NCBI RefSeq assembly: GCF_000382205.1
Contig: NZ_KB907786.1
Coordinates: forward strand, 1,054,001 to 1,118,000
Source of the DNA: Dyadobacter beijingensis DSM 21582
GTDB taxonomy: Bacteria; Bacteroidota; Bacteroidia; Cytophagales; Spirosomataceae
DNA: 64,000 nt
Direction of reading: 5' to 3'
Positions within the stretch are counted from its first letter, which is position 1. Every line of letters starts with the position of its first letter. The position numbers and the translations under genes were made by a program. Below, in pieces: positions 53,201 to 63,291 of the stretch. The notes under the pieces were generated by a model that made no database searches, was not told where the DNA came from, and saw nothing but the letters and a program-made list of their open reading frames with translations.

Positions 53201-53590
53201 TCATAATCCCAACTTCTTTTTCAGGAAAGGAATTTCAAGCGGCTTGGGGAGCAGGTCGATGATGTGCGGGCTGGCTTTGGCCTTCTCGATGTCTCGGGTG
53301 TCGATGGTGGAGGAAAGCATGAAGATCCGGACCTTCTGCCGCAGGGGCTCGGGAAGGTGGTCGAATTCGTCGATAAATTCGAAACCATTCATATCCGGCA
53401 TTTGCAGGTCGAGCAGGATAATGGTTTCCGGCAGGCCGTCGCCCTGTGTGGTGAGGTGTTTGAGCGCGTCGCGTGCCGAGTTGAAGGTTTTCACTGAATG
53501 GGTGATGCCGCTTTTGATCAATAGCTTTTCGTAGATAAACAGATCGAACGAACTGTCATCTATCAAAAAGAAGTTAAGCAGTGGCTCCAT
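53201..53590 (-). CDS. Single-domain response regulator (receiver)
   Basis: A 129-residue receiver. The ATG at 53590 (MEPLLNFFLIDDSSFDLFIYEKLL) is used because it starts at the first beta strand and follows the kinase stop by 7 bp. The acidic pair is DD11-12, the phospho-acceptor D61 in ILLDLQMPDMNGFEF, then the Ser/Thr switch in FMLSSTID and the lysine in LLPKPLE. No output domain, so it acts by protein contact or as a phosphate relay. Last gene of the minus-strand signalling operon. Confidence 0.92.
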   Translation of the reverse strand: MEPLLNFFLIDDSSFDLFIYEKLLIKSGITHSVKTFNSARDALKHLTTQGDGLPETIILLDLQMPDMNGFEFIDEFDHLPEPLRQKVRIFMLSSTIDTRDIEKAKASPHIIDLLPKPLEIPFLKKKLGL

Positions 53591-53597
53591 GGCGGGT

Positions 53598-54689
53598 TTA
53601 TTTGTTAATAGAAGGAATGTTGATTTCAAAAATACTACCTTCGCCGATTTTTGAAGTTACGCTGATTTCTCCTCCCAATTTCGAGATCGCCTCGTGTACG
53701 ATGTAAAGTCCTATCCCTGAGCCGCTGTTGGTGGCACCTGCCCGGTAAAACATTTTGAAAATTTTGTCCTGATCCGACTCCTTAATGCCCGTTCCGTTGT
53801 CGGCAACGATGATTTTGGCCTCCGAGGGCGTCGATTTGACCGTCAGGTGAACGAATGGATCGGCCTTCGACTTGTCCTGGAACTTGATCGCGTTATTGAT
53901 CAGGTTATTGAAAATGATCCGCAGCTTCATCACGTCGGAATTGAATATGCCGTCCTGCTGGATGTCGGTCGTCATTTTCAGGTTGCCGTATTCGGGCAGG
54001 TATTGAATGGTGGCCTGCACTTCGGTGACCAGCTCTTCGAAACTGATATCGGTCACGACGGGCACGCCGCGCGCATTTTTGTAGTAATCGATGATATTGA
54101 TAATGAACGTGTCCAGCTTTTTCACCGACTGGCGGATCAGTTCCAGGTACTCGTTCTGCGACTTCACGTCGTCTTCCAGCAATGCGAGGTTCACGATGCC
54201 GAGCACCGACATGAGCGGGGCGCGGAGATCGTGGGAGGCGCTGTACACGAACTTGTCGAGCTCCTCGTTCGCTTTCTGCAGTTCGATATTACGCTGTTTG
54301 AGGTCTTCACGGGTCTTGTAAATGTCGTATGCATTGGAAATCGCATTTTCGACATATTTGTAATCCCACGGCTTATCGATAAACCGGAACACTTCCCCCT
54401 TGTTGATCGCATCGATCGCCGCGCCGATGTCGGTGTGGCCGGTGATCAGGATACGGATCGGTTTCGGATAGTCGATCCTGATTTTTTCAAAGAACTGCAC
54501 GCCCGTCATGACGGGCATCCGCTGGTCGGCCAGGATAATGCAGAAATCCTTTTCTTCCAGCATTTGCTCCGCTTCTACAACCGAGGACGTGATCGTGATA
54601 TCGTACTGCTTGCGGAACGAAGCCTTGAACGAATGCAGATTGTGTTCCTCGTCGTCAATGTACAGAATGGTTATAGCTTTTTCGCTCAT
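53598..54689 (-). CDS. Receiver-histidine kinase hybrid
   Basis: A 363-residue cytosolic protein. A receiver domain comes first (1-125; DDE at 12-14, D55 in ILADQRMPVMTG, K106 in FIDKPWD), then a coiled coil (about 126-145), HisKA with H153 in VYSASHDLRAPLMSVLG, and a HATPase_c domain (N-box NNLINNAIKF, G1 DNGTGI, G2 GSGIGLYIV). With the receiver at the N-terminus, phosphorylation from another kinase would control its own kinase activity. It overlaps the 7TM kinase gene upstream by 4 bp. Confidence 0.93.
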   Translation of the reverse strand: MSEKAITILYIDDEEHNLHSFKASFRKQYDITITSSVVEAEQMLEEKDFCIILADQRMPVMTGVQFFEKIRIDYPKPIRILITGHTDIGAAIDAINKGEVFRFIDKPWDYKYVENAISNAYDIYKTREDLKQRNIELQKANEELDKFVYSASHDLRAPLMSVLGIVNLALLEDDVKSQNEYLELIRQSVKKLDTFIINIIDYYKNARGVPVVTDISFEELVTEVQATIQYLPEYGNLKMTTDIQQDGIFNSDVMKLRIIFNNLINNAIKFQDKSKADPFVHLTVKSTPSEAKIIVADNGTGIKESDQDKIFKMFYRAGATNSGSGIGLYIVHEAISKLGGEISVTSKIGEGSIFEINIPSINK

Positions 54690-56866
54690 TGAAAATCAGG
54701 GATTGGGCGTGCTTTTCTTTTAACAGGAAGCGTGATCAAAAATTCTGTTCCTTCTCCAACTTCCGTGTTTACTTGAATATTACCGCTGTGAACTTCGATA
54801 ATTTTAAAGACAATTGAAAGCCCGAGGCCGGTACCGTCTCCCACCTGCTTGGTGGTGAAGAACGGCTCGAAAATCTTGGCGCGAACCTCCGGTGTCATAC
54901 CCGGACCATTGTCGCGCATGGAAATCGCCACCGTTTCCGGGTCTTTCAGCCATGATTTTACCCAGATGGTCGGGGTTTTGTTCTCGTGCTTTTCCTTCTG
55001 CAATGCGTAAATCGAGTTGGTCAGGATGTTCATAAACACCTGGTTAAGCTTGCCGGCATAGCATTCGATGCTCGGGATATTGCCCAGTTCCTTGACCAGC
55101 GTAATGGAATTGCCCATCTGGTAATTGAGAATAATGAGTGTGGACTCGATTCCCTCATTGACATTGACCAGATTAAGGTCGGTTTCGTCCACCCGCGAGA
55201 ATATTTTCAAACCTTTTACGATCTCGACCGTCCGGTGAGCACCATCTTCCATGCCTTTGAGCAGGGTACCGAGCTCGGTTTTGAGGTAATCCAGGTCGAG
55301 GTCGTCTTTCAGCTGTTCGATCTCCTTCACTTTGTTCTGCAACCCTTCCATCGACTCCACATGGCGGACCTCGTCGTACGAATCGAGGATTTCGAGCACG
55401 TCGTCGATGTCGCGTCTCAACGGGCGGATGTTTGAGCTTACAAAGTTGATCGGGTTGTTGATTTCGTGGGCGATACCGGCAGTCAACTGACCGAGCGAGG
55501 CCATTTTCTCGGAATCGATGAGCTGGGTCTGGGCGTCTTTCAGCTTGGTAAGCGTCAGGTTCAGCTCGGTATTGGCAAATTGCAACTCGGCCGTGCGTTC
55601 GTTGACGCTCTTTTCGAGGAAGGCATTCTGTTCGAGGATGATCTTCTCGTTTTCCATTGAAATCCGCAGCGCCTGCGCCTGCGATATTTCCTTTTCCTTC
55701 TTGAAAATGTTGATCTTATCTGCCAGCGCAAACGAAAGCAATATCACTTCGATCGCCGTACCGGCCTGCATGGTGTAGTTGGTAAATGTATTGTAGGGCA
55801 AAATGTTCAGGTTCCGCAACGAGTACAGCACAATGCCGATCAGGAACATGGACCACGCCACGAGGAAGAACTTGGCCGGGCGGTAGCCTTCCAGCGAGAG
55901 GATGAATGCCACCACCAATGCAAACAGGGCTGCCGATGGCGCCAGCACGTCGATGATCCGGTAGCTGACCATGCTCAACCCGGCCAGGTTGAAGAGCACT
56001 GCCACGCCGTAAGTCACGATAATGACCATAATAATCCGGTAGTTCGTGAGGGAACGCTCGCGGATATGCAGGAAGTTTTGGAAAAACATCAATGCAAAGC
56101 TGCCCGCCAATGCCGGGAAGAGGATGATCGAATATTCGTTGAAGGCGGGTACGTCGGGCCAGAGGAATTTGAACGTATAACCTGTAATCGTCGTCTGCGT
56201 GAGACCGATGAAGAGAATGTATAAAACGTAATACAAATAGCTCTTTTCACGGATCGAGAAGTACACGAAGAAGTTGTACAACATCATCACAAACAGTACG
56301 CCGATGTGGATTCCGGAAATGATTTCGTTGGTTAATGCAAACTGGAAGAGCCCCATCTCGCTGCGGACGATCAGCGGGACGACGAGCTGCTCGCTGCCGT
56401 GGATTTTCAGGTAGTAGGTTTGTGCGGATTGTCGCGGGATATTGAGTTTAAATACAATGTTCTGGTGCTTCACCCGCCGCTTGTCGAATGGGTCGTTCCA
56501 GGAAATGGTTTCTTCGCTGGTTTTGCCGGCTTCCATCGAGTACAAGGTAACCGTCTCGATGCGCGGATAAGCCAGTTCCAGGAACACGTTATCCTCGGCG
56601 CTCGTGTTCCTGATATTGAGCCGCAGCCAGAATGTGGATGCACTGACCCCGAAATTGGGCGTTTCCTCCTGGCTCGGCGTGAACTTGCCCCGTGCTTTCA
56701 CGTCGTCGATCGTCATGGCTGCCGTGGTGTCCTCCATGATTTCCACCTGCCTGCCGATGGTAACGTCGTTTCCGTTGAACACGACCTCTCCGGCACGGGC
56801 GTGAACGAGGACGCCCAGGAGCAAAAGAAGACTTCCAATAACCGCGCGGTAAACCTTTACATCCAT
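54686..56866 (-). CDS. 7TMR-DISM sensor histidine kinase
   Basis: A 726-residue membrane kinase: signal peptide (about 1-26), periplasmic 7TMR-DISMED2 beta-sandwich (about 35-165, typical of carbohydrate-like ligand binding), seven membrane helices (about 175-385), coiled coil (about 390-450), HisKA ([19 protein letters not shown]) and HATPase_c ([30 protein letters not shown]). It is a complete sensor for an extracytoplasmic small molecule. Its start overlaps the end of the GNAT-like gene by 10 bp and its end overlaps the receiver-kinase by 4 bp. Confidence 0.93.
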
Positions 56867-57549
56867 TTATTGATATCGTAAATTATCGTTAAGTCCCCGC
56901 GCCGGCCGGTTTCCACGACGGTTTGGGTAGGGTTTGCTCTCAGGCTGAATATTTTTTCGCGTTCCTCGTCGGTCGCGAAAGGGAGGTTGTTCAGGTCGCG
57001 GGCGATCAGCGAGGTCGCGATCAACCCTTCTTTCGGGTAATAGAATGTGCCGTTGTTGCCTAGGTCGGTCAATACCTCGAAACCGATGCGCTGACTGATG
57101 ACCAGGGTAATCGGCGAACAAAGGCCCATCAGGTAATTGATCCCTACTTGCGAAGCAATCGCCATGGCAGTTCTACCCAGGTATACGCTGCCGATGCCGT
57201 AACCGGCTACCTCCTTGGAGTTGAAAAGTCCGCAGAACTCGGCCACGTTGTAGTCCCCGATCTTATCCACATAGCCGTAAATGCTCTTGTCGATTTTCGC
57301 GATCGCGTCTTCCATGGGCATTTTCAGGTTCGGGGAGCGCACCTGCACCCGCGTGCCGCCGTAAATGGATTTCCCGTCCTCGGATTCCACAATGATCACA
57401 TACGTGTTCGGATCGTCGAGCCAGGTGTGGGTGGCCGAGGTAACCTGCTTTACGCCATATGCTTCCAGTACTTTCCGGTGTCCTTCGACATACCGCATGC
57501 TGGTTTCCACGTCGTCCGGCGCACGGTACGCTTTAATATGTGCTACCAT
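56857..57549 (-). CDS. GNAT-like N-acyltransferase
   Basis: A 230-residue cytosolic protein with the layout of a GNAT acyltransferase: charged N-terminal helices, strands THTWLDDPNTYVIIVES and IYGGTRVQV, then the acyl-CoA loop region VAGYGIGSVYLGRTAMAIASQVGINYLMGLCS and strand/helix TLVISQRIGFEVL. The closest recognisable analogues are GNAT enzymes in general, including acyl-homoserine-lactone synthase-like proteins; I cannot assign the acceptor. It lies between the E1/nitroreductase gene (6-bp gap) and the 7TM kinase (10-bp overlap), so production of all three is coupled. Confidence 0.7.
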   Translation of the reverse strand: MVAHIKAYRAPDDVETSMRYVEGHRKVLEAYGVKQVTSATHTWLDDPNTYVIIVESEDGKSIYGGTRVQVRSPNLKMPMEDAIAKIDKSIYGYVDKIGDYNVAEFCGLFNSKEVAGYGIGSVYLGRTAMAIASQVGINYLMGLCSPITLVISQRIGFEVLTDLGNNGTFYYPKEGLIATSLIARDLNNLPFATDEEREKIFSLRANPTQTVVETGRRGDLTIIYDINKWM

Positions 57550-57555
57550 GTACAG

Positions 57556-59838
57556 TTACGGGTTTACGATGAAAAGTGTCTCATTTAACGGCAACCGATA
57601 ACTTTTGACCGCCGGCTTTTCAGCCTTCGCTATTTTAAATAAAAACACTTCCGCCACGTCCTCTCCATAAGGGACCATCTCCATGAATTTCTTTCTTAAT
57701 GTGCGCAATCGGGTTGCTTCGGCGTCGTCGAGGCCTGCATTGTTGCCCTTTGTAATGCGGGGGAACAAATAAAACGGGGAAATTAATGGATGGATCGCAA
57801 ATTGCAACTGTTCGGCGCGAAGCCAGAGGCGCTGCATGGCAATTCCCCCCTTGAAAAAATCCTCGTAACTATATTTCGGCATGGTGATCATGCCCAGCGC
57901 CGAAGCTGTGCTGACCGACCTGAGCGCCGCATCCACGAGCGCCCCGCCGCCTTGTATTCCTTTTAATGTCTGTGAAATCTCACGGTCGCGGATGATCGAC
58001 AGCGCGGCGATCTGCGCATTGTTCAGGCCGAGGGTGCGTACATCGATACCATCGCGCGATTGTTCCGCGTCGGACGGCGTCCATTTCATCTCCCGGTGTA
58101 CGAAGTCGTAATGGCCCTCGGGGTTGAGCAGGCGCACGCGGTCGCATTCGCCGATGACCCCGCCGAGGGCCATAATCTGCTCTTTCTCTGCAAAATAATG
58201 GAATGCGGCTCCCGGCACACTTTCGGCTGCTTCTTTCAATTGATCAAAAACCTCTTCACTGATCGGCACCGCTGTCGACGGGTTGCGGTTGGTGGTGCGG
58301 TCGTAAATGACGTTCACCGCGCCCGGATCGTATACGCTTTCGCCCGCTTGCGCGTCCGGGAGGAAATCGATCGCGGCAATGAGCGGCGAATCCTCGCCGA
58401 GCGGGAACAGCTCGGCCGTGACGCCCAGGCCGGCTTCGTGGCTTTTTAATAATATGTTCTCATAAGATGCCCCGAAAGAAATGTTCGAAGCGATCTGGTC
58501 GAAGTCGCCGAAGGAAAACGAGCGGAAACGATCGTGAAAAAGGAACAGCCTGCCATGATGGTAAAGCCATTTCCAGGGCTGATCGTTGCCAGTCGACGGT
58601 GCCTGGCAGGCCGCTTTCACGATCTCCGCAAGCACATTTTCAGCGATGCCATGTGCCGGCGCGGCCGGTAACGACTCAACTATACGAACGGCCTCCGACA
58701 AGTCGAAAGGCGCGAATGGATTGTCTCTTTTGGGGGCTTGCGCCGGGGATGATTTGTCGCCTACGAGATCTTCCAGGTCGATATAATACCTGCCTGACTC
58801 ATGGAACTGGTCGAGCAGGATCCGACGGCAAACGTCGGTTACGACCCCGCCGCCGAGCGTGACGGCGCTGGCCAGCTGCGGCCAGGTGCCGATGCTTTGC
58901 CCGATTTCCACGAGCGATACCTTGCCCCGTTTCGAGCCGTTGATCGCATTCACGATCCGCAGCACGAGCGGCAGGCGGTCTTCTTCGGAAATCTGGTCGA
59001 ATTTTTCCAATGGCAGCCCTTGCAGGTAGCCGTGGAAAATGGGCCTATCAGGCTCACTGTCAAATCGTTCTACATCTAGCATGCCCCGGTCGCTGGTTTC
59101 CATAACCACAGGGATGCCGAGTTGTGCGGCACGGATACGGCAGCTGATTTTCAGCCCAATGTCGTCGCATTCGTCGACGAGGATATCCAGCTTGCCGCCA
59201 TCCAGCAGGAAAGTGTCGAGGTTTTCCTTGCTGATGCCTTCCGGAAAGCATTCAATATCGAGAAACGGATCTATTTCAGCGATTTCGCGGGCGGTAACAA
59301 TGCATTTGTTGACGCCGATGTTGTGCAGGCCGGTACGGATCCTGTTCAGGTTGCTGAGCTCAATGGTATCGAAATCAGCGAGTTTCAATTTGCCGCAGGT
59401 ACGTTCGGTGGCAATGCTCAAAGCGACCGAATGCCCAACCGACAGCCCGATGATGCCGATCGTCCGGGCAGCCAGGTGACGTTGCTCGCCGGGCGTGATT
59501 TTGTATTGGTTACGACTGGTGCGGAGCTCGGTGAATTCTTCCTCGTTCACCAGGTGCAGCAGCCGGTCCGACCACGGGTAATAGACCCAAACCCCCTCTG
59601 TGTCGACATTTTTGCCCTCGGCCCATTGCAGGTACTTTTGTTCCGTTTCTGCGGCGCTGAGCCGCTTTTTCGGGTGCCGGATTCGGATAAGTTCTTGTTT
59701 CTGGGAAGCAAATAGGTCCAGGATGGTTTTGCCACGATAATCTTCAATGAAGGAAAGGAATTTTTCTTTATCTGCGTAGCGCTCTTGTGAGATGAAAACC
59801 GGTTTGTAGATATAGTTGAGCTCTGTGTTACTGTACAT
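57556..59838 (-). CDS. E1-like (ThiF) / nitroreductase fusion, Rv1355c (MoeY) family
   Basis: A 760-residue two-enzyme fusion (ATG at 59838 preferred after an AT-rich leader; 59868 is also possible). After a unique N-terminal region (about 1-120) comes an E1/ThiF adenylation domain (about 120-370: IGIIGLSVGHSVALSI nucleotide loop, LADFDTIELSNLNRIRTG, VDECDDI). A nitroreductase-type flavin domain follows (about 410-740: ACQAPSTGNDQPWKW, SFGASYENILLKSHEAGLGV). The order is that of mycobacterial Rv1355c, named MoeY, though a molybdopterin role is unproven. E1 plus FMN oxidase is also the enzyme pairing used to make azole rings in peptides. First gene of the signalling operon. Confidence 0.85.
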   Translation of the reverse strand: MYSNTELNYIYKPVFISQERYADKEKFLSFIEDYRGKTILDLFASQKQELIRIRHPKKRLSAAETEQKYLQWAEGKNVDTEGVWVYYPWSDRLLHLVNEEEFTELRTSRNQYKITPGEQRHLAARTIGIIGLSVGHSVALSIATERTCGKLKLADFDTIELSNLNRIRTGLHNIGVNKCIVTAREIAEIDPFLDIECFPEGISKENLDTFLLDGGKLDILVDECDDIGLKISCRIRAAQLGIPVVMETSDRGMLDVERFDSEPDRPIFHGYLQGLPLEKFDQISEEDRLPLVLRIVNAINGSKRGKVSLVEIGQSIGTWPQLASAVTLGGGVVTDVCRRILLDQFHESGRYYIDLEDLVGDKSSPAQAPKRDNPFAPFDLSEAVRIVESLPAAPAHGIAENVLAEIVKAACQAPSTGNDQPWKWLYHHGRLFLFHDRFRSFSFGDFDQIASNISFGASYENILLKSHEAGLGVTAELFPLGEDSPLIAAIDFLPDAQAGESVYDPGAVNVIYDRTTNRNPSTAVPISEEVFDQLKEAAESVPGAAFHYFAEKEQIMALGGVIGECDRVRLLNPEGHYDFVHREMKWTPSDAEQSRDGIDVRTLGLNNAQIAALSIIRDREISQTLKGIQGGGALVDAALRSVSTASALGMITMPKYSYEDFFKGGIAMQRLWLRAEQLQFAIHPLISPFYLFPRITKGNNAGLDDAEATRLRTLRKKFMEMVPYGEDVAEVFLFKIAKAEKPAVKSYRLPLNETLFIVNP

Positions 59839-60046
59839 TTTAGAATAATTGTGAAGCCTGTCCTTCAATGGGCCGTGGCCAGATTAAACAAATCACAAAA
59901 TTGTGCCGATCTTCGCATAAAATTCACCGGACCGGCTAGCGCATCCCTTGAATCTCGTATATTCACGCATTTTTACTTGCTTCAATAAGTACACAAATTG
60001 CTGAATTTATTTTTGTAAAACTAACCCCTGGTTCTATGGGGGGCAA

Positions 60047-60073
60047 AATATTTGGACGTTTACGTCAAATATT
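60047..60073. promoter_or_regulatory. Near-perfect 27-bp palindrome
   Basis: AATATTTG (60047-60054) with CAAATATT (60066-60073) outside, and ACGT (60056-60059) with ACGT (60062-60065) inside, spoiled only by one extra G at 60055. A likely binding site for a dimeric regulator, or a cruciform/hairpin. Confidence 0.5.
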
Positions 60074-60154
60074 CCCTTATTAGCAGATGCTTGTGCCGAC
60101 ACGACCTGTAAAATTTTGTCAAAAGTGCTGTGGCCGTTGATGCGAATATAGAAT

Positions 60155-60170
60155 TAATATTATAATATTA
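60155..60170. promoter_or_regulatory. Perfect 16-bp AT palindrome upstream of receiver gene
   Basis: TAATATTATAATATTA is its own reverse complement and lies 55 bp before the receiver start codon. It may be an operator or simply promoter AT-richness. Confidence 0.35.
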
Positions 60171-60225
60171 TCAATTAGTTCGGGGCAGTATGAACCCACG
60201 CCCTGTCAAGCACCAGTAATTCAGG

Positions 60226-60690
60226 ATGGAAAAAGGAAAAATAAGCGTATTGTATGTGGATGATGAAATCAACAATCTCAATTCATTCAAAGCCGCTTTC
60301 AGAAGAGATTTCAATATTTTAATCGCAACCTCAGGCCGTGAAGGCCTCGAATTGCTGAAGCACAATGTCGTGCACGTCATTATCACCGACCAGCGGATGC
60401 CCGAAATGACCGGTGTCGACTTTCTTATAGAGGTCTTGAAAGACTATTCAGACCCTGTGCGTATCCTGCTTACCGGTTATACCGACATTACCGCTGTGAT
60501 CGACGCGGTGAACAAGGGGCATATCTATTATTACCTCAACAAGCCATGGGACGAGCAGCAGCTGCGCATCATCATCAAGAATGCTTACGAGATTTTCCAC
60601 CTCCGGGAAGAAAACAAGGAGCTGATCGAAAAGCTGATCGACGTAAACGGGCAATTGGAGTTTTTGCTCCGGCAAAACCTGCTTTCCTAG
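60226..60690 (+). CDS. Single-domain response regulator with coiled-coil tail
   Basis: A 154-residue receiver. Acidic residues at DDE 12-14, phospho-acceptor D55 in IITDQRMPEMTG, lysine in YLNKPWDEQQL, then a coiled-coil tail (about 120-150, LREENKELIEKLIDVNGQLEFLL). It closely resembles the receiver domain of the hybrid kinase at 53598-54689, sharing positions such as ADQRMP/TDQRMP, RILITGHTDI/RILLTGYTDI and DKPWD/NKPWD. It is divergent from the operon and likely belongs to the same circuit. Confidence 0.92.
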   Translation: MEKGKISVLYVDDEINNLNSFKAAFRRDFNILIATSGREGLELLKHNVVHVIITDQRMPEMTGVDFLIEVLKDYSDPVRILLTGYTDITAVIDAVNKGHIYYYLNKPWDEQQLRIIIKNAYEIFHLREENKELIEKLIDVNGQLEFLLRQNLLS

Positions 60691-61042: not shown

Positions 61043-62152
61043 ATGTTGAAGCAATTTTACCGCATGTGCGGTTTGATAATCCTGGTCGGCCTGGCATTGT
61101 GCTGCCGCTACCCTTCACCGGAACCTGGGGGAGGTGGTGGCGATACGACGACCCCTACCAAGCCGGATACGGTGATTATAGACACCATTCCTCCTAAAAA
61201 TCCCGACTCGCTACTCGCCAGGACGGCCCGCTTTGATACTTTACAGATTTTCAACGACGCCCAGCTGAGCCTCAGCCAGGGTATTTACACGAGCGCCGCC
61301 AATTATCGCGGCCAGATGCTGGAGCTTGGTTATCAATACATTGCTCCATCGAACGATACGATGAAATACCGGCCTTTCGTGCTTATGGTGCACGAAGGTG
61401 CATTCCTCTTCGGGGATTCCGGCAACGAAATGGGGAAAGCCCGCTGGCTTGCGAAACGCGGCTACGCGGCCGCTTCCATCAACTACCGGCTGGGTTTCAA
61501 CGGCGGCAGTGAGACGTTCGCCTGCGGCGGAAGCAGCACCGACGCCCTGCGCGCCGTGTACCGCGCCGTGCAGGATACCTACGCGGCCATTCACTATTTT
61601 GTAGACCGGGCCGAGGAGTTCGGGATCGATACGCGGCAGATCATGCTCGCGGGCAGCAGCGCGGGTGCCATTACCGTCAGCGCGCTGGTATATATGAATG
61701 AAGCCGATTTCGAAGCGCTGCAACCGGGCATCACCAAAGCGCTGGGGCGCCTGGACCCCAAGGCGGAAGACAGTCCCTTCCGTGTGCGGGCATTGCTGAC
61801 ACAGCTTGGCTATGGTTTGTTCAATATAAATTATATCAATGCTTCCAATGCGATGCCTACCGTGTTTTTCCAACGTATCGGGGATAATGTGCTGCCTTAT
61901 TACGGGGGCACGCTGCTGTCCTGCCCCACCTATCCGGGCATGGTGGGCGCCAAACCGGCTTCCGATCAGTTGAGAAAATTCCAGGTGCCGTTCGAGCTGA
62001 ACTATGAAAATCAGGTCGGGCATCAGCTTAGCTATCCCGAAAATTATATTGCAGGGCGCTACGCGCAATTCATGAAGCGGTTCTGGTCACTGAACCGGCG
62101 GCAGATCACCAACGACGCTTACAAAACGGTAGAAAATACGCTCCTCCGCTAG
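61043..62152 (+). CDS. Alpha/beta-hydrolase lipoprotein (esterase-like)
   Basis: A 369-residue lipoprotein (lipobox around C20/C21 in LALCC) with a Gly/Thr/Pro linker (about 26-55) holding the enzyme away from the membrane. The hydrolase domain has an oxyanion-type HEGAFLFG motif, INYRLGF, the nucleophile elbow MLAGSSAGAITVSAL and a late His in NQVGHQLSYPE. It resembles carboxylesterases of the BD-FAE/PNB type. Substrate unknown. It ends in a 4-bp overlap with the convergent acyltransferase gene. Confidence 0.85.
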   Translation: MLKQFYRMCGLIILVGLALCCRYPSPEPGGGGGDTTTPTKPDTVIIDTIPPKNPDSLLARTARFDTLQIFNDAQLSLSQGIYTSAANYRGQMLELGYQYIAPSNDTMKYRPFVLMVHEGAFLFGDSGNEMGKARWLAKRGYAAASINYRLGFNGGSETFACGGSSTDALRAVYRAVQDTYAAIHYFVDRAEEFGIDTRQIMLAGSSAGAITVSALVYMNEADFEALQPGITKALGRLDPKAEDSPFRVRALLTQLGYGLFNINYINASNAMPTVFFQRIGDNVLPYYGGTLLSCPTYPGMVGAKPASDQLRKFQVPFELNYENQVGHQLSYPENYIAGRYAQFMKRFWSLNRRQITNDAYKTVENTLLR

Positions 62153-63291
62153 GGGCTAACCTGCTGTTTCAGCACCGCGCGCCTGCCCGTATGGAGCAGA
62201 CGGCCGAGGTAGGAGGTAAGTTTCACTTCAATGAATTCGTAGGTGAGCCGGGAGGCAATAAGCGTAACTGCAAGCGACAGCAGGAACATGGCCGTGCCCT
62301 CGGCGTACACCGGGAAGCCCAGTTTACGGAACAAAAAGCCGAGGCCCACGACAATCGGTACGTGCAGCAGGTAAATCGAAAAGGACATATCGCCCATTGC
62401 GACGAGCCAGGAAGGGTATTTCAAAATGCGCTCCTGGTAATGGAATATGAAGACTGAAAAGATTGCCGTCGACCCCAATCCCCATTCAAACGGCCCGAAA
62501 CCGCCGAAAAAGCCCGAAAGAAATTGCCAGATAGCGAGGCAAAGAATGGCAGGCGCCACCAGGCTTATGGATAAAAACCCGCTGATTCGCTCGTGCCAGG
62601 CGCGATGGTAGTAGGCAAGTCCGAGGAAAACCCCGCACACGAAATTCCAGATGATCGGGTTGGTGACCATATTCAGGTAGGGCATACCGAGGTCGGACAT
62701 CTTGTCGGCTTTTAATGTAAAAACCCCATAATAGGTAGGAATGCCGACGAGCGTGACGGAGATAATCAGGAAGAATGCATACCAGCGCAGCCTGGAAAAC
62801 AGCAGCGATATGGCAATGAGCAGGTAAAAATAGATTTCATAGTTTAGGCTCCAGCCGACATTCAGCAACGCGTAGCCGTAAAACGGGGCAGGCGTGGTAG
62901 CCAGCGGCAGGAACAGCAGACTCTTCCCCAGCTGCATTGGCCATTCCGGGCTGAGCGAGAGCCGGCTTTGCAGCAACGTGTAAGCCAGCGTGACTACCGC
63001 ATAGGCCGGCCAGATGCGGATCAGCCTTTTTGCGATGAAACGGAGAATATTTGCCCCGGTGGGAATGGTGTTGCGTGTGATGTACACCATGATGAACCCG
63101 CTGATTACAAAAAAGAGGCTCACCCCGGCAGGTCCCGACCCGAAAAGAAAGTCGATTTCCCTGCGGAAAGGGGCATCGGACGCCATGACGTCTTTTAAAT
63201 GATAAACCGTTACATATAGTGCGGCAATTCCCCGTAGAACCTGAATACTGTTCAACCTGGACTCACTGGCAACACGAAGCTCCTGTCCCAT
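62149..63291 (-). CDS. Acyltransferase family 3 membrane protein (OafA-like)
   Basis: A 380-residue integral membrane protein with about ten helices. The N-terminal LNSIQVLRGIAALYVTVYHLKDV contains the family's catalytic-type His, followed by GPAGVSLFFVISGFIMVY. The last helices include MGDMSFSIYLLHVPIVVGLGFL. Such enzymes transfer acetyl or other acyl groups to sugars or lipids of surface polymers. It is convergent with the esterase-like gene. Confidence 0.92.
   Translation of the reverse strand: MGQELRVASESRLNSIQVLRGIAALYVTVYHLKDVMASDAPFRREIDFLFGSGPAGVSLFFVISGFIMVYITRNTIPTGANILRFIAKRLIRIWPAYAVVTLAYTLLQSRLSLSPEWPMQLGKSLLFLPLATTPAPFYGYALLNVGWSLNYEIYFYLLIAISLLFSRLRWYAFFLIISVTLVGIPTYYGVFTLKADKMSDLGMPYLNMVTNPIIWNFVCGVFLGLAYYHRAWHERISGFLSISLVAPAILCLAIWQFLSGFFGGFGPFEWGLGSTAIFSVFIFHYQERILKYPSWLVAMGDMSFSIYLLHVPIVVGLGFLFRKLGFPVYAEGTAMFLLSLAVTLIASRLTYEFIEVKLTSYLGRLLHTGRRAVLKQQVSP

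Follow-up and report, generated by a model that had tools for sequence, protein, structure and literature searches.

A conserved unit of oxazolone synthase-like enzymes and a 7TMR-DISM kinase in Dyadobacter beijingensis: a probable small-molecule signalling system of Bacteroidota

Does an enzyme pair encoded beside a membrane receptor kinase make the very compound which that kinase perceives? This question is posed by a locus in Dyadobacter beijingensis DSM 21582 (Bacteroidota, Cytophagales, Spirosomataceae), located in a stretch of 64,000 nucleotides which was analysed as a whole and is called the window (contig NZ_KB907786.1, positions 1,054,001 to 1,118,000, forward strand). An E1/nitroreductase fusion, an N-acyltransferase, a sensor kinase of the 7TMR-DISM type (DISM kinase), a receiver-kinase and two single-domain receivers lie together there, and we consider it probable that they form a self-contained small-molecule signalling system, in which the ligand of the DISM kinase comes from the enzymes encoded next to it. 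The ligand reading is supported because co-variation with the enzymes is seen in the sensor half of the kinase, a RetS-like ectodomain with a seven-transmembrane (7TM) region, and is missing in the kinase half. The unit is composed as follows.

57556-59868, minus strand: E1/nitroreductase fusion, with E1 (ThiF-like cyclase) at about residues 1-395 and a flavin-dependent oxidase at about residues 396-770
56857-57549, minus strand: FeeM/LuxI-fold N-acyltransferase with a putative TrzA/OxzA-like role (AlphaFold2 model and structure search)
54686-56866, minus strand: 7TMR-DISM sensor kinase (PF07696, PF07695, HATPase_c)
55682-56866, within the preceding gene: sensor half of the DISM kinase (RetS-like ectodomain and 7TM), residues 1-395; the kinase part spans residues 396-726
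53598-54689, minus strand: soluble receiver and histidine kinase (Response_reg, HisKA, HATPase_c)
53201-53629, minus strand: single-domain receiver (Response_reg 7e-13), ATG start probably at 53590
60226-60690, plus strand: divergent single-domain receiver (Response_reg 3e-18), counted in the unit

Gene content, layout and spread of the unit

Genome searches, in which matches to the fusion were counted at E 1e-60 or better, yielded a match in each of the 48 genus genomes searched and none in the other 174 family genomes covered. E1, acyltransferase, DISM kinase and divergent receiver stand at one locus in 48/48 genus genomes, the window included (the contig of L082 ends before the receiver-kinase), and the divergent receiver adjoining the unit is 77-100% identical among them. 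A gene order peculiar to this single genome, which a first-pass annotation had named as grounds for refuting its own reading, is thus not what was found. The co-occurrence for which a check was proposed there extends further, as E1 adjoins the DISM kinase in nine other families of the phylum. In an unbiased sample of the phylum ten of 395 genomes gave a match, our own included, and the nine others all carry acyltransferase and DISM kinase beside E1. Among 44 order-level loci outside the family the DISM kinase was present in 41, and of the three loci without it two (L154 and L111) are cut off by the end of their contig, leaving L157 as a true exception; at class level E1 lay beside the DISM kinase in 5/5 loci. 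The named scan, which covered the best 80 of 569 relatives and is a biased sample since 12 of its 15 query rows came from kinase-linked loci, gave both acyltransferase and DISM kinase in 74/80 loci (five cut, L219 an exception), from genera including Pedobacter, Mucilaginibacter, Daejeonella, Parapedobacter, Arachidicoccus and Cryomorpha. A small receiver is encoded on the opposite strand in 71 of these 80 loci, and the acyltransferase precedes E1 in 24/77 and follows it in 53/77. The acyltransferase was accepted at at least 80 bits at the named loci and at at least 60 bits at the genus, order, class and phylum loci. For comparisons of complete units 140 of 175 loci were kept, those lacking any of the four full-length genes being left out.

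The association of the genes exceeds chance, because they share one locus in 48 genus genomes and their families are rare in the window genome, with two matches to PF07695 in 7.4 Mb and one match to the acyltransferase family of the unit. When a sensor profile was run over 150 family genomes to look for orphan sensors in members without the synthase, the genus units reached 454-507 bits and the best other matches at most 340 bits.

The tight packing of five minus-strand genes described at first pass, with gaps or overlaps of -10 to +7 bp, was borne out by the open reading frame (ORF) coordinates (+6, -10, -4 and +7 bp, the last value with the ATG start), and the domain labels then given to fusion, DISM kinase, receiver-kinase and receiver agree with the Pfam and NCBIfam matches. 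For the last receiver a TTG start at 53629 leads to an overlap and the ATG at 53590 to the gap of +7 bp; the ATG is favoured because most genus relatives align to the TTG frame from residue 9-19 only, and few from residue 1-2. With starts set at the first possible codon, median spacing in 46 genus relatives was -1 bp from E1 to acyltransferase and -4 bp from kinase to receiver-kinase. Judged from such features, the unit likely forms one transcript. Between the fusion and the divergent receiver lies the presumed promoter region.

59869-60225: divergent interval of 357 bp with two short conserved AT-rich blocks (genus alignment), presumed promoters

Promoter-like pattern matches were found in it at 60137-60194. 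The pattern scan also gave minus-strand matches inside the fusion gene at 58706 and 57896, where an internal promoter may lie, and none at the acyltransferase/kinase junction. A terminator-like hairpin of 12 pairs lies at 52576-52545, about 0.6 kb downstream of the unit, such sites occurring in the region at chance number (11 found versus 10.4 expected).

E1 and nitroreductase enzymes act in some pathways to ribosomally synthesised and post-translationally modified peptides (RiPPs), and ring formation in peptides had been cited as a precedent at first pass. A RiPP modification cassette with a precursor peptide is nevertheless scarcely credible here. The gaps between the members are too small for a gene, the minus-strand ORFs upstream (20-71 aa, none with ATG) look non-genic in a patchily conserved interval, and a FeeM-type acyltransferase is found beside E1 in 43/44 order-level loci. 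The chemistry is better read as conversion of an N-acyl amino acid to an oxazolone, as by TrzAS/OxzAB, for which no precursor peptide is needed.

Beyond 60690 a BD-FAE-type esterase gene and an acyltransferase-3 gene (window 61043-63291) adjoin the unit in converging orientation. Both were placed outside it because they were not found at many genus loci; the ara genes on the other flank were found at most of them. Scanning one neighbour in each of eight relatives revealed no shared output gene (SRP54, two peptidases, a sigma-54 activator, a receiver-PAS-kinase and others, one being without match).

Predicted product of the enzyme pair

From its family matches and residues the fusion appears to be a TrzS/OxzB-like oxazolone synthase. 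It matches NF005901, the 'Rv1355c family', with 872 bits (cut-off 476), and in Pfam ThiF with 2e-16 and nitroreductase with 3.5e-05 (24.5 bits, cut-off 23.5). Rv1355c has been described as TrzS and Rv1356c as TrzA, and TrzA of M. tuberculosis together with TrzS of M. smegmatis converts tryptophan, acyl-CoA and ATP to N-acyl tryptazolone in vitro, the final step requiring O2 and oxazolones being liable to hydrolysis (PMC12856293). The related systems TyzACB and OxzAB yield tyrazolones (PMC10404671). With TrzS numbering matched through relatives, the ATP-site aspartate D235 corresponds to TrzS D217 and is present in 10/10 aligned fusions, three of them actinobacterial, and in 141/141 units. R577 of the window fusion is the proposed equivalent of TrzS R540, derived from an offset of +323 to the aspartate in two mycobacterial homologues; for TrzS Gln651, likewise placed through relatives, no conserved glutamine was found at the expected offset.

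The window acyltransferase has no Pfam or NCBIfam match, and its profile found no match among PDB sequences. A GNAT fold with FeeM/LuxI synthases as nearest relatives is supported by the AlphaFold2 model (predicted local distance difference test score, pLDDT, 92), for which FeeM 2g0b was the best PDB match (Foldseek E 1.7e-8), followed in the next rows by acyl-homoserine lactone synthases, the top 14 rows sharing 12-18% identity. A second aligner gave VIA Z 16.7, with FeeM leading and ElaA and 1xeb tied at 16.4. Among 18 relatives of the acyltransferase, five matched Acetyltransf_1 and one the FeeM model (E 0.25). The GNAT-like label of the first-pass annotation therefore holds for the predicted structure, and sequence families lend it nothing in the window protein.

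By homology to TrzAS/OxzAB the product class would be an N-acyl oxazolone, a small ring compound built from a fatty acid and an amino acid. The acyltransferase would acylate an amino acid. The carboxylate would then be activated with ATP by the E1 domain, which would go on to close the oxazolone ring, and the flavin domain, where intact, would desaturate it; units without the flavin part may deliver the saturated ring or its opened form. The product would then leave the cytoplasm or partition into the envelope.

A different role of the enzymes, as MoeB/MoeY-like proteins whose cofactor or redox state is reported by the kinase, had also been considered at first pass. E1 and flavin domains do occur in cofactor pathways, and MoeY is presumably an older label of the Rv1355c family. 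No support for such a role was found and we regard it as very improbable: the best family model, Rv1355c, is TrzS with measured oxazolone activity (PMC12856293), the acyltransferase fold is FeeM/LuxI-like, and the flavin part is missing, judged by length, in 17/140 complete units, in which E1 stands without it.

In two units of the own genus (L085:4992-7229 and L088:4986-6884) E1 is kept and no nitroreductase domain was detected in the C-terminal part; the proteins are longer than E1 alone, the remainder of the unit is intact, and they present a natural step from the fusion toward the E1-only type. Outside Bacteroidota, a Nitratidesulfovibrio protein of 989 residues carries about 200 extra N-terminal residues ahead of E1 and flavin domain, and on a Streptomyces plasmid E1 overlaps a GNAT gene, whose product aligns poorly (17% identity). 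Two genes upstream of the Rv1355c homologue of a Rhodococcus plasmid lies a GGDEF-domain gene (L257:2947-3882), which recalls the cyclic di-GMP genes noted next to trzAS (PMC12856293). Viral contigs contained no E1-domain relative.

Shared history of the enzymes and the sensor half

The DISM kinase matches 7TMR-DISM_7TM (3e-53) and 7TMR-DISMED2 (2e-33) and carries HATPase_c. Its ectodomain resembles the periplasmic domain of RetS (3jyb, E 1.7e-7); the whole sensor also resembles human Wntless, though less strongly (E 3e-4), which is a lead only. As to phosphorylation residues, H467 of the DISM kinase and D55 and H153 of the receiver-kinase are each present in 141/141 units. A domain search found no DNA-binding domain in the receiver-kinase and no LuxR-type cytoplasmic receptor among the six genes; the receptor candidate is the membrane kinase. 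The product of the enzymes would be sensed by the RetS-like ectodomain/7TM half of this kinase, which would hand phosphate to the receiver-kinase and the single receivers. Eight Pedobacter units (L177, L179, L180, L181, L183, L185, L187 and L247) carry a pair of consecutive small receivers, not one, on the divergent strand, and an order-level genome (L128:8010-16283) has four DISM kinases in a run after the enzymes, the last cut by the end of the stretch, an arrangement suggestive of receptor duplication.

The first-pass proposal of a compound made by the enzymes and sensed by the kinase gains support from the way in which distances co-vary along the unit. Pairwise distances among 44 genus genomes were corrected for the local background (ara genes and divergent receiver); L073, L082, L085 and L088 were left out of genus correlations and trees, as genes were missing or truncated. 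E1, flavin part, acyltransferase, ectodomain and 7TM co-vary at 0.56-0.91, kinase part, receiver-kinase and receiver at 0.46-0.71, and between these two blocks the values range from -0.24 to 0.04, so that the DISM kinase gene itself contains the border. When four sets (own genus, 46 units; a second genus of the order, 10; named E1-first, 41; acyltransferase-first with flavin part, 17) were scanned more finely along the genes, with control by the receiver-kinase, the border came to lie in all of them at residue ~395, the end of the 7TM region. In the own genus the residual correlation with 7TM reached 0.81-0.88 in the acyltransferase and 0.79-0.83 in the ectodomain, against -0.03 to 0.25 in the kinase part, and the drop was as sharp in two of the three other sets. 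These values depend on the background chosen: control by the receiver-kinase only gives 0.29 for E1 with the kinase part and 0.13 for 7TM with the kinase part in the genus. In the genus, co-variation persists in enzyme stretches whose conservation is similar to that of the kinase part (E1 300-369: r 0.62 at a distance of 0.24; kinase stretches: r -0.03 to 0.25 at distances of 0.16-0.26), and the missing signal of the kinase part is thus not just a matter of conservation. Going by these distances, the history of the sensor half is that of the neighbouring enzymes, whereas the kinase half goes with the flanking genes.

Other RetS/LadS-type ectodomains sense outside cues such as a glycan or an ion. 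It could accordingly be assumed that the kinase perceives such a cue and induces an oxazolone which serves as defence or envelope lipid and not as ligand, a view to which the RetS fold of the ectodomain and an operon tying sensing to output would lend themselves, as would the stress links and antibiotic-induced production discussed for proteobacteria (PMC12856293). We hold this to be unlikely, since it fails to predict that the sensor half switches type together with the enzymes while the kinase half stays, and since the layout matches known autoinducer operons.

Such switches are visible between close relatives. In araA, kinase part and receiver-kinase, the genomes L048, L049 and L051 share 91-98% identity with the window and with L040, L041 and L045, but the values fall to 47-51% for the ectodomain, 68-71% for 7TM and 79-83% for the acyltransferase; compared with one another, L048, L049 and L051 reach 81-85%, 93-95% and 97-100% in these three parts. 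In trees L048, L049, L051, L058 and L059 form a clade supported by 100 for the sensor, 99 for the acyltransferase and 94 for the flavin part, and approximately unbiased (AU) tests reject this clade for kinase part plus receiver-kinase (p 3e-6) and for E1 (p 1e-4). In a second case L061 groups with L062, L063 and L067 in sensor, acyltransferase and flavin part, and with L056 in the kinase part; E1 decides neither way (AU test, p 0.395 against the species pair). The p values are optimistic, as the groups were picked after identity tables and trees. Outside these groups L136 and L140 share 91% in the kinase part, 48% in 7TM, 58% in the acyltransferase and 32% in the flavin part; L138 and L141 share 96% in the kinase part, 37% in 7TM and 46% in the acyltransferase, but 76% in E1 and 79% in the flavin part; and the acyltransferase-first units L206 and L224 share 89% in the acyltransferase, 33% in the flavin part and 43% in 7TM. 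By these comparisons a block of desaturase, acyltransferase and sensor seems to have been exchanged between close relatives, in the manner of ComQXP pherotypes.

55750-58900, minus strand, approximate limits: apparent exchange tract of nitroreductase part, acyltransferase and sensor half (sliding identity, trees and AU tests)

Recombination starting and ending in the conserved DNA of E1 and kinase could also swap everything in between with no match of ligand and receptor involved, and some of the co-variation may stem from physical linkage. This and several other observations weigh against a self-contained signal-receptor unit. The linked ara genes give residual correlations of 0.56-0.83, and araA correlates with 7TM and acyltransferase at 0.37-0.44 under the RRHK/HK/RRd control, so that co-variation within the block proves nothing by itself. 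The drop is gentler in the named E1-first set (0.62 to 0.39 to ~0.2). In acyltransferase-first units 7TM and acyltransferase correlate at -0.14 (24 units) or 0.26-0.29 (17 units), and the sensor follows the adjoining E1/flavin part (0.50-0.92, except in the first stretch); in the second genus (10 units) it tracks the acyltransferase alone (0.89-0.96), with E1 and flavin part at -0.11 to 0.29. The best-matched enzyme part is therefore the one nearest the kinase in both gene orders, as a recombination tract would give, and in L138/L141 and L206/L224 the enzyme part nearest the sensor is the only one to differ along with it. Eleven E1 loci of the own genus (L065, L086, L087 and L089-L096), each a second E1 or E1-fusion, lack the kinase, the acyltransferase being present at one and not at the other ten, and no such kinase is listed for four actinobacterial plasmid stretches. 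A domain search found no exporter among the six genes. The position equivalent to R540 is arginine in 79/123 fusion proteins, and the flavin pocket thus varies. Tryptazolones were concentrated in cell pellets and N-acyl tryptophans in supernatants (PMC12856293). Elsewhere ThiF and nitroreductase genes adjoin N-acyl amino acid synthases whose products are dehydro-N-acyl tyrosines, an oxazolone not having been seen according to the passages cited (PMC12479983); by analogy the oxazolone ring may be an intermediate and the end product here may be of the dehydro-N-acyl type.

As a full explanation, exchange by linkage alone is nonetheless doubtful. The signal falls at one and the same domain junction in each of the four sets and does not fade with distance, equally conserved stretches differ by side (E1 versus kinase part), and cohesion across families with permuted order is left unexplained by it. 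Linkage accounts poorly for a drop at a domain junction within a gene and for the lasting cohesion of the unit despite permuted order, and a receptor matched to the product of its neighbouring enzymes is the reading which we prefer.

Likeness to known autoinducer systems

The enzyme pathway, the kinase family and synthase-kinase operons as a kind are already known. Searches of open-licence PMC papers turned up no account of the pairing of an oxazolone synthase with a DISM kinase, of its spread or of the block exchange. With TrzA/TrzS and OxzA/OxzB the Bacteroidota unit has the enzyme pair and the ATP-site aspartate in common; it differs in the linkage of this pair to a DISM kinase, a receiver-kinase and receivers, and in that the flavin part is absent or degenerate in some units. 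The acyltransferase fold is common to FeeM and the LuxI-type synthases, and unlike LuxI systems the unit has a membrane kinase, not a LuxR receptor, and an E1 enzyme for cyclisation. RetS/LadS-type kinases share the DISMED2 ectodomain and the 7TM region with the window kinase, which in contrast to them is co-inherited with a synthase; the ligands of the known relatives are other cues.

In the Bacillus ComQXP system the sensor half of comP shares the divergence and the signal is a modified peptide pheromone, as opposed to the lipid-like small molecule predicted for the window unit. There comQ diverges by more than 30% between strains with clonal gyrA, the trees being incongruent (PMC4408185), and the window unit resembles these pherotypes in that enzymes and sensor half diverge between close relatives. 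In layout the closest counterpart is Ralstonia phcBSRQ, a quorum sensing system with the same succession of synthase, membrane sensor kinase, soluble receiver-kinase and single receiver, the last two also described as being without DNA-binding domains; its synthase is a methyltransferase, in place of which the window unit has acyltransferase and E1 cyclase, and the likeness drawn here is one of layout (PMC8578825). By this analogy the unit is best read as an autoinducer-type system laid out like phcBSRQ with other chemistry, the product of which would be used between cells.

The 2025 paper on TrzAS names the physiological role of N-acyl oxazolones as a major unresolved question (PMC12856293). 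Enzymes fixed beside one receptor kinase offer a direct test of this role and a candidate receptor. Whether Bacteroidota use oxazolone (azlactone) autoinducers phylum-wide, with 7TM receptor kinases of their own and mutually exclusive types arising by block swaps, and whether the mycobacterial and proteobacterial oxazolones are then signals with unfound receptors, seems to us evenly balanced. If true, part of the Bacteroidota would have its own chemical language, and natural allele swaps would make signal specificity mappable without guessing.

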